A DNA stretch of 64,000 nucleotides from Paenibacillus sp. FSL H7-0331 (lineage in GTDB: Bacteria > Bacillota > Bacilli > Paenibacillales > NBRC-103111), in NCBI RefSeq assembly GCF_001956045.1, contig NZ_MRTH01000018.1, positions 62,001 to 126,000 on the forward strand, in the 5' to 3' direction. Of the stretch, positions 59,001-64,000 are shown in pieces (position 1 is the stretch's first letter; the number at the start of each line of letters is the position of its first letter). Below the pieces are notes generated by a model. It searched no databases, was not told where the DNA came from, and saw only the letters and a list, made by a program, of their open reading frames with translations. The position numbers and the translations under genes are program-made.

Positions 59001-59431
59001 CTAACGGTAACATTCAAAGGAACCTCTCGCTGCTTCCTCCTTGTCTGTCATCTGTCTTAGACTTGTCTTTTCTTCAGGAACCAATTTGACTGGTTTTGAG
59101 GGATTGCGGCGAATGAGTCCTTCCGAGTTTGCCCATTCAAAAAAACGTTTCAGTGTGATGAGACGGCGATTGATTGTAGATGGCTTCAACCGCATTGTTT
59201 TTTGCATATCTTCTCGGTACCGCGTCAATGTCGGGGTAGCCACATCCTCGATCGAAATACAGGTTTTCTCTTCCTGGTACTCCGCGGTTTCAAACCAACT
59301 AATAAACTGTTTTAAATCACCGGCATATTCGCGTAACGTTTTTGGATTTAATCTTTTTGTGTCGTGAGGACATGAATGAATGCCTGAATATATTGTTCAC
59401 CTTGATCTGAAATTGCCATTGTATGGCTCAT
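59001..59431 (-). pseudogene. Truncated, frameshifted tyrosine recombinase
   Basis: The N-terminal core-binding domain of a Xer-like recombinase. The frame from ATG 59431 gives about 26 residues (EQYIQAFIHVL...), then a one-base shift in a run of five A (59354-59358 on the plus strand). After it the other frame continues RLNPKTLREYAGDLKQFISW through TINRRLITLKRFFEWANSEG. It ends at RQMTDKEEAARGSFECYR with a stop where an intact protein would enter the catalytic domain. No catalytic residue remains. Joined to a Tn3 fragment, it may come from a Tn3-type transposon with a TnpI-like recombinase. Confidence 0.82.
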
Positions 59432-59738: not shown

Positions 59739-60565
59739 CTATGAGGCGCACAAAAAAGCAGAGAGAATGTCATCTCCCTGCCGTGCAACGTCTCTTCCAT
59801 GTGCCGCTTGCGCCGTATCCTGCAACTTTTCCGCAAGAGGAAAATCGTACCGCTCATATTCCAGCACATCATACATTTGTTCCAATGATTCCAGCATGTA
59901 TCCTTCGTTCGTTTTCTGAATGCTCATATCGATCTCTTGCTCTTTCAGCTTTCTCTTTAGACGATACATCGTATTGTGTAAATTATGCAATGCGCGGTCC
60001 TTGCTCATATCCGGCCATAACAAATCCGCCAACCGCCACTTGTTGAGACCCTGATCCGGGTGACAGAGGAAGAAAGCTAATAACTCCTCCGTCATTCGTG
60101 TTGGAAAGTGGACCATCGAACCTCTCGAATTACGGACCTCGAATCCCCCCCAAAACACCGAATCAAGGCAGGCTGCCCTTTTGCACGGCATCGGCGACAG
60201 GGCAATGCCGCTTTAACAGCCGGCTCGCAACCTGCTCGATTACCGTGGGTGTCACGGGCTTCAAGATGTAATCGAAGGCATAAACTTTGATTGCGTCTAG
60301 CGCATAATGCTTATGTTCCGTCATGAAGACGATTTTCGTATGCTTTGACGCCTCGTTAATCTTTTCCGCGAGCTGCAGCCCGTTCATCCTTGGCATTTCC
60401 ACATCAAGGAAAGCGATATCCGGTTGAAGCTCAGGCAGGCGAGCTAACGCCTCAAGCGAGCTTGTAAACGCGCCTGTGATCGGTAAAGTGCGGAACTTGT
60501 CCAATAACGCGTTTCATTAAATTTAATGTCGGTATTTCGTCCTCTACAATGACCCTTTTAAACAA
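59739..60565 (-). pseudogene. Response regulator with SARP-like DNA-binding domain, multiply frameshifted
   Basis: Pieces of one gene in three frames. TTG 60565 (GGAGAGG upstream) starts FKRVIVEDEIPTLNLMKRVIG. After a shift near 60500 the receiver continues ITGAFTSSLEALARL, IAFLDVEMPRMNGLQL with the phospho-Asp, and DYILKPVTP, ending at 60163. A second shift in a seven-G run (60145-60151) restores GGFEVRNSRGSMVHFPTRMT and the winged helix LADLLWPDM. The C-terminal activator domain stops early at 59739 after a foreign-looking tail. At least two frameshifts plus truncation make function unlikely. An error-rich assembly is a less likely alternative. Confidence 0.8.
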
Positions 60566-60700: not shown

Positions 60701-63700
60701 TTACTTTCCGCCGACTGATACCGGCACATGAACATGATCCACGGACGCCTCTTGAATGTTCTTAAACGCCCAGTGTTGTGAAGGTACATCACTCCACTTT
60801 GCATCGGATACAGATAACGGATCCCGGCCCGACAACTTGTTAAGCATCATCACCGCTTCAGCCCGGGTAAGGGTCTGCTCAGGACGGAACGTGCCGTCCC
60901 CGTATCCGTTAACTACTCCCGCCGCCTTCGCTTTCCCAATCGCTGCCGCTGCCCAATGGCCTACGGTGTCGGAGAAGCTGCCGCCGCCTTCCGCGGCCGA
61001 GCTCAAACGAGCTGCAATGCTTGCCGCTTCAGCGCGCGTAATGGTTTGTTCCGGCTTGAAGCTGCCATCCAGATAGCCGTCCATCAGTCCGCTGTCCGCT
61101 GCCACATCGATAGCTGCATTGGCCCAATGACCAGGCGTGGTATCCGTATAGGTTATGGCAGCTGTCTTACTGCTCTTATCCTTAGCGAACAACCGGACTA
61201 ACACTGTTGCCATTTCTGCACGCGTAATTGGCTTGTCCGGTCCGAATGTGCCGTCCGGATAGCCCGTCATATACGCTTGATGCACATTACTTGCTTGCGA
61301 TCCTAGCTGAACGACCGTAAATGTACTAAACTTGTTCACGGTAAACCGGATGCCCGGCTTGCCCGTTGAATCGTAGGGGACAATTTCCCCTCGAATCAGC
61401 TCTTTTGTGCCGTCGCTATGCTCGATGAAGATGCCCAACTCTTTAAGCTGCTGCTCGTTCAGGCCCGTGTCGGGTAAAGGCAGTACCAGCGTAACCGGAC
61501 GGTTCTGCATGTTCGTCTCGATCATCATGGGACGACCCAAGACATTGACAATTGCACTACCGGCGGCTTCACGCACAATCTGCTCCGTTCTTGCACGTTG
61601 TTCGATTTCACTGCGTTCGCTTTCTGTTTTGACCGGCACGATATTGAAGTAGATGTCATCCTTCCATCCTTGCAGCGATCCGTCCGGAATAACAATGCGT
61701 ACATTATTCGTGCTGATCTCTAAATTCACTTTATTGTCCGCCAATTTGGCTGTTGATTCCTTCGGCAAAGTGACTTTAACCTCTGAAACCTCATCCTTGG
61801 GATCGGGAATGACGATCTTGGCAGAGTTGGAACCGGCAGCTTTCAGTTGATCAACCAGCTTGTCCGCCTGACCCGGCGTAAGGGAAAGCTCATCCTTCTT
61901 TCGTCCGTCCGCTCCAGTCGTACGATGTATGACCGCCGTGGACACAACGCCGCCGTTGCCGGTATTTTCTACATTAACAGTGATGGTCTCGCCCTGTGAA
62001 GAACCGGACGATGAACCGCCCCCGCCGCTGGACGTATTGCGTAAGGTAATCGCCGCGCTGATCGCCGGCGTTGTTACATTGCCCGCCGCATCCGTCAACT
62101 CCATGGATACTGTCTTTGCGCCGCTGCCCGGGTTCAACGCCCATGCTTTCGTTCCAGCAATCGCTTCCCATGAGCTCCAGTCCGCGTTGTCGTTAGAAAA
62201 GCGCATCCGGATACCATTCGAACCCGCACCGTCGCTCCCCGTAATCGTCAAGTTGACGGAGGTCGAGATCGTGCTCTCTGCTCCGCTGTTAATGCTCAAT
62301 GTTCCCACAGGCGCCGTTTTATCGAACAATACACTGCTGCCATCCGTTGTCGTATTTACGCGTACTCCCGGGTTTCCGGACAAATTGGCGAAATCGATGG
62401 TGAACGGAACAAGCCCTTCAGTTTCATTGCCTGTAAATGAATATTCCGCTTTATAGACATTGCCGCCCAAGCTTGTCACACTGGCCGTCTGGCCTGTAAG
62501 GGTGACTGCGGGCAATTCCTTTAAGCTCTCGCTGGCTGTAAAGGTTAGAGTCACCACGTCGCCTTTTTTGGCAACGGACGGGGTGGCATTACGGCTGGCG
62601 ATGCCCACTTTCGTCAGCGTCGGCGGCACTGCCAGGTTCGGCTTGATGCTTGCCTCATTGGAATCTGTTATCCATCCGCCGACATTGTATGCTTTGACTA
62701 AGAAATAGTAAGTTGTTCCGTTCGTCAAGCCGTTTACGCTGTAGGTTGTTTGCGTAACGGTAGCTTTGTAGGTTGCGTCGTAAACGCTGCTTGCTGTACC
62801 CATATAAAGATTGTAGTAGGTGGCTCCTGTTACGCTGTTCCAGTTCAAGAGGGCTGTACCGTCTCCCGCAGCCGCCTTCAAATGGAATGCAACTTCAACT
62901 TTACCGGGCTGCAGCGTTTTCGTCATTTCTTTCGCCGATGCGTCGGTCACGGTAAATTGTTCCGGATTGTTTCCCTTTAAGGTTAAGGCTTTAGTCCCTG
63001 TCTTCGCCCCATCCTTAATACGAAAGGAGATCGTAAACATTTTTTGGCCTGACGTTATAGCGGCATCGCCGCCCCTCTGATCCGCCCAAGCAGCTTTGAG
63101 TGAGCCTGTAGTATTGTCGTATACGGAATCGAAAGTGTCCCCGTATTGGCCTGTTATTTTGGTCACTTCCAGCGAGGCTGTATCATAGCCGATTTCCATT
63201 CCGTAAGAACCGACTCCTTTCGAAGCTTCGCTTACAGATATGGGCACATCGACCGTTTCGCCGGGCGCTCCGCTGGCACTGCCGATAACAAGGCTCACCG
63301 TGCCGGGCGCAAGCGGATTGATGCGTACCGTACCGGCGGTAAGACCGGGAATCGCAGTGAAAGCCGTATCGTCCACCGTATATTTCGCTGAGGTAAAGTT
63401 TACAATGGAATCGCCCGGTACCGCGTTTTCTTTAATTTTCAGTTGAACCGTGAATATCTTTTGTTTGGAACTAAGAAACCCAAGGTCGGTTAAACCCGTT
63501 GCCGCAACCTTAATCTTTCCAGCCACGGATGTATCTGCGCTAAAAAGAGAGGATGGCGCTTCATCTTTTACCGCTGAATTCCCTTGGACAAGCTCAAGCA
63601 CCTGGGCGTCATAAGACAATTCCATACTGTATCCTAGAATAAAATCGTTTACACCCGGTGTTGTCCCCGGCTCCATGTTGACTGCCACACTTACCGTACT

Positions 63701-63862
63701 TCCGGGCTCGCCTGACGACCCGACTGCTTCAGCTTTCACACTCACCGCCGCGGTAGCCTCGGCGCCGCCCATCGGTCCGAATGAAGCCGTCATGCACAAG
63801 ACCACGATAAAAACGAGCATTTGGTGCAACCATCGTCTGGTTCCATATCGACGTTTATCCAT
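60701..63862 (-). CDS. Cell-surface scaffold-like protein: two cohesin-type domains, FN3, Ig-like domains, three SLH repeats
   Basis: A 1053-residue exported protein. A signal peptide of about 38 residues is followed by two cohesin-like beta-sandwich domains (about 40-185 and 186-325, with GEPGSTVSVAVNM and GAPGETVDVPISVS). Then come a fibronectin type III domain (about 330-410), Ig-like regions (415-605), a Gly/Ser linker (about 606-625), and a region of about 230 residues with VTLVLPLPDTGL. At the C-terminus are three SLH repeats (about 860-1045, each with TRAE), which bind pyruvylated wall polymer. It lies 5 bp behind a gene ending in a dockerin, and AGGAAGG for this gene is inside that gene's last codons. 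Cohesins elsewhere bind dockerins, so this is probably a wall-bound anchor for dockerin-bearing partners. Confidence 0.9.
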   Translation of the reverse strand: MDKRRYGTRRWLHQMLVFIVVLCMTASFGPMGGAEATAAVSVKAEAVGSSGEPGSTVSVAVNMEPGTTPGVNDFILGYSMELSYDAQVLELVQGNSAVKDEAPSSLFSADTSVAGKIKVAATGLTDLGFLSSKQKIFTVQLKIKENAVPGDSIVNFTSAKYTVDDTAFTAIPGLTAGTVRINPLAPGTVSLVIGSASGAPGETVDVPISVSEASKGVGSYGMEIGYDTASLEVTKITGQYGDTFDSVYDNTTGSLKAAWADQRGGDAAITSGQKMFTISFRIKDGAKTGTKALTLKGNNPEQFTVTDASAKEMTKTLQPGKVEVAFHLKAAAGDGTALLNWNSVTGATYYNLYMGTASSVYDATYKATVTQTTYSVNGLTNGTTYYFLVKAYNVGGWITDSNEASIKPNLAVPPTLTKVGIASRNATPSVAKKGDVVTLTFTASESLKELPAVTLTGQTASVTSLGGNVYKAEYSFTGNETEGLVPFTIDFANLSGNPGVRVNTTTDGSSVLFDKTAPVGTLSINSGAESTISTSVNLTITGSDGAGSNGIRMRFSNDNADWSSWEAIAGTKAWALNPGSGAKTVSMELTDAAGNVTTPAISAAITLRNTSSGGGGSSSGSSQGETITVNVENTGNGGVVSTAVIHRTTGADGRKKDELSLTPGQADKLVDQLKAAGSNSAKIVIPDPKDEVSEVKVTLPKESTAKLADNKVNLEISTNNVRIVIPDGSLQGWKDDIYFNIVPVKTESERSEIEQRARTEQIVREAAGSAIVNVLGRPMMIETNMQNRPVTLVLPLPDTGLNEQQLKELGIFIEHSDGTKELIRGEIVPYDSTGKPGIRFTVNKFSTFTVVQLGSQASNVHQAYMTGYPDGTFGPDKPITRAEMATVLVRLFAKDKSSKTAAITYTDTTPGHWANAAIDVAADSGLMDGYLDGSFKPEQTITRAEAASIAARLSSAAEGGGSFSDTVGHWAAAAIGKAKAAGVVNGYGDGTFRPEQTLTRAEAVMMLNKLSGRDPLSVSDAKWSDVPSQHWAFKNIQEASVDHVHVPVSVGGK

Positions 63863-63867
63863 TTATT

Positions 63868-63999
63868 TCACTGCCTTCCTAGGTAAATGTTCATCATGAT
63901 CGCCGTGTCTGCCGTATCTACTACTCCATCGCCGTTCATATCGGCTATTTCGAGTTGCTCGGCAGTCAAAGAGATTTTCCCCAATATATATTGATTGAC
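63868..63999 (-). CDS. Dockerin-terminated protein, C-terminal end (continues beyond window)
   Basis: The last 43 codons of a gene running off the right edge. They encode a type I dockerin-like segment. ADMNGDGVVDTADTAIMMNIYLG carries a calcium-binding loop with D-x-N-x-D-G and a following D, and is preceded by VNQYILGKISLTAEQL, the end of the first repeat. The stop codon is followed by a 5-bp gap and the scaffold-like gene, so the two form one operon. The catalytic or binding part of this protein is outside the window. Confidence 0.85.
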   Translation of the reverse strand, partial: VNQYILGKISLTAEQLEIADMNGDGVVDTADTAIMMNIYLGRQ

Positions 64000-64000
64000 A

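Follow-up and report, generated by a model that had tools for sequence, protein, structure and literature searches.

A two-gene cohesin–dockerin operon of Paenibacillus that probably displays a non-catalytic head on the cell surface

Cohesin–dockerin pairs are best known for holding cellulose-degrading machines together. In clostridia, anchor proteins receive cellulosomal components that are encoded elsewhere, and one of these anchors, OlpA, is attached to the cell wall by SLH repeats. A set of scaffoldins has been reported for Paenibacillus guangzhouensis, with 35 cohesin-containing proteins, 28 single cohesin–dockerin adaptors and five SLH anchors (PMC11557425). According to the same paper, nearly all dockerins of this species reside within cohesin-containing proteins, many with GH domains, and one dockerin lies outside the scaffoldins (PMC11557425). 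Cohesin–SLH anchors from Paenibacillus are already in print (PMC11557425). Passages on ANME archaea describe the use of dockerins and cohesins outside cellulose degradation (PMC9012536).

The stretch of DNA analyzed here (the window) comprises 64,000 nucleotides from Paenibacillus sp. FSL H7-0331 and ends in a gene pair that encodes a two-cohesin SLH anchor and a dockerin protein. This locus resembles the P. guangzhouensis set in its genus, its cohesins, its SLH-anchoring scaffoldin and the lack of a conventional cellulosome (PMC11557425). In contrast, the dockerin protein of the window carries neither a cohesin nor a GH family, and its operon neighbor is the two-cohesin anchor; such a gene pairing does not appear in the section on P. 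guangzhouensis (PMC11557425). The tandem adaptors of that species combine a cohesin and a dockerin in one polypeptide, whereas the partner protein considered below has a dockerin only. A tandem cohesin–dockerin system that resembles the published one does occur in relatives of the window. The anchor shares type I cohesins with the clostridial Coh-OlpA structure (3ul4), which is matched by its second cohesin with an E value of 9e-5. Unlike for clostridial anchors, the partner is the adjacent gene and shows no catalytic family. The ANME dockerin and cohesin surface proteins differ in being archaeal and in carrying substrate-binding proteins as cargo, and the passages on them contain no conserved two-gene pair (PMC9012536). 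Among open-licence papers, no title or abstract was found that describes a two-gene pair of cohesin–SLH and dockerin proteins in Paenibacillus, and a pattern search of viral contigs gave no match.

The anchor is a protein of 1053 amino acids encoded on the minus strand at positions 60701–63862, and all features named here lie on that strand. Its N-terminal signal sequence was recognized by eye and corresponds to the first helix in the AF2 model. There follow cohesin 1 (residues 45–181, positions 63320–63730), which is the faster-evolving copy, and the more conserved cohesin 2 (residues 191–324, 62891–63292), then a fibronectin type III domain (residues 331–404, 62651–62872), a beta-rich, Ig-like region (residues about 410–610, 62033–62635), a pre-SLH module (residues 619–860, 61283–62008) and three SLH repeats (residues about 863–1053, 60704–61276). 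A Pfam scan matched Cohesin (PF00963) in two stretches (E 3.5e-30), SLH in three (E 6.2e-37) and fn3 (E 8.1e-6), in agreement with a first-pass annotation that had described a 1053-residue exported protein with two cohesin-like domains and three SLH repeats. That annotation had named a better alignment to unrelated beta-sandwich families as grounds for doubt. This doubt is removed because the anchor cohesins are type I cohesins by sequence and fold. For each copy, the best sequence match among solved structures is the type I cohesin CaCohA2 (6kgc; E 2.5e-9 for cohesin 2 and 1.2e-4 for cohesin 1), and the AF2 model of the anchor (mean pLDDT 74, 13 sequences) fits CaCohA2 with a TMt of 0.83 and an rmsd of 2.1 Å over the length of one of the two cohesins.

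The other domains of the anchor had been regarded as unusual. Whereas the fn3 domain is borne out by the scan, no Ig-like family exceeds the Pfam cut-off in the anchor (Big_3_2 reaches 19.0 versus a cut-off of 23.3), and residues 410–607 are beta-rich in the AF2 model. The region from 625 to 850, which had been called unassigned, indeed has no Pfam family over the cut-off. However, the module at residues 619–860 precedes the SLH repeats of four proteins without cohesins (L002–L005) and is found in 24 of 48 multi-cohesin anchors. Because it recurs in cohesin-less proteins, this region is best described, from sequence comparison, as a presumptive stalk or wall-proximal module and no peculiarity of the window anchor. 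Since all three features recur in Paenibacillus SLH proteins, they do not set this anchor apart. Large scaffoldins of cellulosomes have many cohesins and a CBM3, whereas the anchor has two cohesins and no CBM family over the Pfam cut-off.

The 3′ end of the partner gene is located at positions 63868–64000 and is cut by the window end; positions 63868–63999 encode a 43-residue dockerin half followed by the stop codon. Only 5 nt (63863–63867) separate this stop codon from the anchor ATG, just as the first-pass annotation had it when it placed the anchor 5 bp after a gene with a terminal dockerin. The C-terminus of P0125, a protein of 559 amino acids, is exactly the 43-residue tail of the window, and P0125 is taken to be the full-length partner. 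It consists of a signal sequence, a beta-propeller, a Big_5 domain and a C-terminal dockerin, with no cohesin. Nor does it show a GH or PL family in the Pfam scan, although a catalytic part had been anticipated for the partner. The dockerin scores 48.7 bits with the Dockerin_1 profile (PF00404; cut-off 22.9) and has both calcium-binding loops, each of 12 residues, at 502 and 536; with this profile match and these loops, it is assigned as a type I dockerin. The AF2 model of the dockerin has pLDDT values mostly below 50.

Conservation of the gene pair was assessed with the two cohesins as query. Matches were obtained in 22 of 104 family-level genomes (E ≤ 1e-8) and in 67 of 392 order-level genomes (E ≤ 1e-10), the second set overlapping the first. 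Loci were picked by their cohesin match and not by their neighbors, and the G276 locus is not included. We defined anchors as open reading frames (ORFs) with a cohesin and an SLH tail but no dockerin, which gave 100 proteins; because they include close relatives, counts based on them do not represent independent events. A dockerin ORF is present immediately upstream on the same strand for 83 of the 100 anchors. The window is the 84th case, and was scored as unpaired in this count because its partner is cut off by the window end. Directly upstream of eight further anchors (L159, L161, L165–L168, L170 and L172), which form a single-cohesin operon clade, lies an orthologue of the L162 partner, with a dockerin that falls below the threshold used. 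One of their genomes, G143 (L168; G143:C12), nevertheless gives a weak Pfam dockerin match (E 2.3e-4). The sub-threshold dockerins of the L159–L172 clade may be decaying, or the joint may have changed. For the remaining eight anchors, the upstream position holds no dockerin ORF and no partner orthologue; one of them (L123:1028-6084, with two cohesins) has a dockerin gene directly downstream. The set of 100 leaves out the cohesin ORFs without a detected SLH tail (L050, L068, L087, L093 in two pieces, L094 and L101). L093 has a dockerin gene directly upstream, and no dockerin ORF is listed near the others in the fetched stretches. The L087 protein (L087:1249-5028) has two cohesins, long coiled-coil-like and aBig_2 matches among the best 25 of 127 families, and no SLH tail match.

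The 83 upstream partners comprise 75 dockerin-only proteins and eight tandem cohesin–dockerin proteins. Pairs with a dockerin-only partner follow two layouts. In one, 48 anchors have two to four cohesins and the partner dockerin generally lies at the C-terminus (its start has a median of 0.90 and a minimum of 0.08 of the protein length); in the other, 27 anchors have a single cohesin and the dockerin is usually nearer the N-terminus (median 0.34). Intergenic gaps, measured to the first in-frame start codon, are at most 15 nt in 45 of the 48 multi-cohesin pairs, with overlaps counted in, and both calcium loops are kept in all 48 dockerins. From pair to pair the cargo and the stalk domains change, whereas the dockerin and the cohesin are the constant elements. 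One anchor (L117:2568-7196) begins with a propeller, continues with two cohesins and SLH repeats, and adjoins a propeller–dockerin partner.

To describe the cargo, 44 dockerin-only partners (including P0125, L001 and L093) were scanned against Pfam with E limits of 1, 0.01 or 0.001. No GH or PL family was matched in any of these 44 operon partners, and dockerin-bearing enzymes for plant polysaccharides, which mark a cellulosome, are not found among them. Instead, the matches are mostly to propellers and to Ig-like or adhesin-type repeats. The propeller families are Rax2, NHL, HVO_0234-like and DUF6242, the last of which we take to be propeller-like, and the other matches are Big_5, IG_AIR9, GLUG, List_Bact repeats and CBM_X2. 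Among partners of the single-cohesin layout, Big_5 and IG_AIR9 predominate. The nearest approaches to an enzyme are SGL, a propeller family that includes enzymes and that is matched beside NHL repeats (over the cut-off in L138, below it in L137), and the N-terminal region of peptidase M26, below the cut-off in L113.

Propellers related to that of the window's partner also occur with SLH repeats in a single chain. An SLH tail is present on four of nine dockerin-less propeller ORFs (11 loci), and P0131 and P0136 each combine propeller and SLH repeats; P0136 is 30% identical to P0125 over 385 columns. A P. periandrae paralogue (L002) has the same tail of fn3, module and SLH but no cohesin. Because such proteins occur in relatives, the cohesin–dockerin joint seems to be a non-covalent counterpart of the fusions seen in other proteins. 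Attachment to the wall is also consistent with the genomic context. Of 13 relatives, all 13 have a csaB homologue that scores over the cut-off, versus four of 14 control genomes, and on this basis, together with its three SLH repeats, the anchor is predicted to be an SLH wall anchor.

In a tree of cohesins (105 rows, of which only 14 are from single-cohesin anchors, and 135 columns, so few that the finer branching is unsure), 30 of 32 first cohesins fall in one clade (support 91/98, below the star level of the tool), the exceptions being L138 and L151. Cohesins of the tandem system are set apart from all operon cohesins (support 100/99, branch length 1.69), and this separation suggests that the two groups may differ in specificity. 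Mean identity is 33% for first cohesins versus 43% for last cohesins, and one residue prevails in at least 80% of sequences at 16 of 137 columns of cohesin 1 versus 34 of 134 columns of cohesin 2. Single-cohesin anchors resemble cohesin 2.

A mirror test compared distances among dockerins with those among cohesins in 49 two-cohesin operons, reduced to 31 by dropping near copies, with L001 representing the window. Dockerin distances correlate with those of cohesin 1 (r 0.61), and a partial correlation of 0.47 is left after SLH and cohesin 2 are accounted for; none of 3000 permutations was as high. The correlation with cohesin 2 is 0.45, and 0.39 after SLH alone (P 0.007), but 0.07 (P 0.29) given SLH and cohesin 1. 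In a smaller set of 15 two-cohesin operons, the dockerin likewise tracks cohesin 1, and the value for cohesin 2 given SLH is 0.23 (P 0.065). When single-cohesin operons were added (19 operons), the correlation with cohesin 2 was 0.73, a value that we attribute to the divide between the two layouts. All of these correlations may owe something to common descent. Two observations bear on which cohesin serves as the receptor: cohesin 1 is favored by the mirror test, and cohesin 2 by the likeness of single-cohesin anchors to it.

The best explanation for these observations, and one that we consider likely to be correct, is that the locus is a two-gene surface-display operon in which a cohesin–SLH socket and a dockerin head form a plug-and-socket pair rather than a cellulosome. 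The observations that bear on it are the domains, the gene order, its conservation, the complete calcium loops and the single-chain propeller–SLH proteins of relatives. The anchor would be exported and held at the wall by its SLH repeats, presumably through a pyruvylated wall polysaccharide, with its two type I cohesins at the outer, N-terminal end. The partner would be exported as a non-catalytic head, composed of the beta-propeller and one Ig-like (Big_5) domain, whose C-terminal dockerin is predicted to be of the calcium-binding type. This dockerin would plug into one of the anchor's cohesins and fix the head on the surface non-covalently, and the head would probably bind a glycan or another surface. 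The pairing of the genes could couple their expression in proportion. The first-pass proposal of a small surface complex encoded by two genes, with a dedicated partner, is thereby retained as the best reading. A role as a scaffold for enzymes is set aside in favor of a display pair, because the partner shows no catalytic family. A broader proposal, to which we give an even chance, is that Paenibacillaceae possess a separate, self-contained cohesin–dockerin lineage that mounts non-enzymatic heads (propellers, Ig-like domains and beta-helices) on wall-bound stalks, each operon supplying one dedicated pair. In such pairs, the first cohesin would co-evolve with its own plug, and many mutually exclusive pairs would result.

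The anchor might instead be the general scaffoldin of a reduced cellulosome, serving dockerin enzymes encoded elsewhere, with the operon partner as one client and possibly a propeller-type lyase or hydrolase. The two cohesins face a single operon dockerin, and the structural matches of the P0125 propeller include lyases and GH43 enzymes; this fold is common to lyases and hydrolases, so an enzymatic head is possible. In addition, the matches listed for G066, which is closely related to the window, include 12 for dockerins and 28 for cohesins, such that cross-talk is possible. G051 has 48 dockerin matches beside two paired operons (L092 and L109), whereas none of the other 15 genomes searched exceeds 12. 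The enzyme scan covered few of these proteins. GH20 is also present on a tandem cohesin–dockerin protein (L060 of G005), unlike on the dockerin-only partners. This reading was rejected as first choice because GH and PL families are absent from the 44 operon partners. Further arguments against it are the scarcity of dockerin matches in P. periandrae (G001; two, neither protein with a GH family) and in G089 (one), and the separate branch of the operon cohesins. It is an unlikely account on balance. Somewhat less probable still is a mixed socket, in which the operon partner occupies one cohesin and a tandem cohesin–dockerin adaptor chain the other, such that the anchor joins both systems. The distinct clade of first cohesins, the different pace at which first and last cohesins evolve and the tracking of only cohesin 1 by the dockerin once the other is removed would all fit, as would a cohesin–dockerin protein (L046) that is encoded in G001 about 15 kb away from the operon. 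Yet two genomes (G034 and G139) have two-cohesin anchors although every dockerin and cohesin match listed for them at E ≤ 1e-3 belongs to an anchor–partner gene pair, and the tandem genes have SLH anchors of their own, with a single cohesin, directly behind them in eight cases.

We regard it as very improbable that the two proteins do not bind each other at all, with the cohesins acting as a spacer, the dockerin as a calcium-stabilized tail and the genes being neighbors only because both encode surface proteins. Cohesins and dockerins do occur in bacteria and archaea that are not thought to degrade cellulose, where, in the passages on these organisms, their role is unclear from presence alone (PMC9012536), and the eight partner orthologues with sub-threshold dockerins are compatible with this reading. 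However, adjacency in 83 of 100 cases with a constant dockerin and cohesin despite differing cargo and stalk domains, as well as the intact calcium loops, argue for a joint, and specific binding is reported for archaeal versions in the same passages (PMC9012536).

If the plug-and-socket reading is true, then the joint also serves as a simple means of mounting proteins on the surface, one that is widespread, dedicated and non-enzymatic in bacteria of the Paenibacillus group. The operons would then provide dozens of naturally matched plug–socket pairs for tests of how specificity evolves and for protein engineering, and they would point to a family of interchangeable surface heads.

A search for terminator-like sites downstream of the anchor gene gave none. 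On the same side, a broken response regulator is located at 59739–60504 on the minus strand, with its receiver part (over the cut-off) and its DNA-binding part (just below) in separate short ORFs. At the L002 locus of P. periandrae, a response-regulator ORF of 378 amino acids adjoins, as judged by eye, a kinase-like ORF and a GLUG-type SLH protein. A fragment at 59001–59243 on the minus strand, near the operon end, resembles the N-terminal domain of phage-type integrases below the cut-off and is perhaps the trace of a past insertion.
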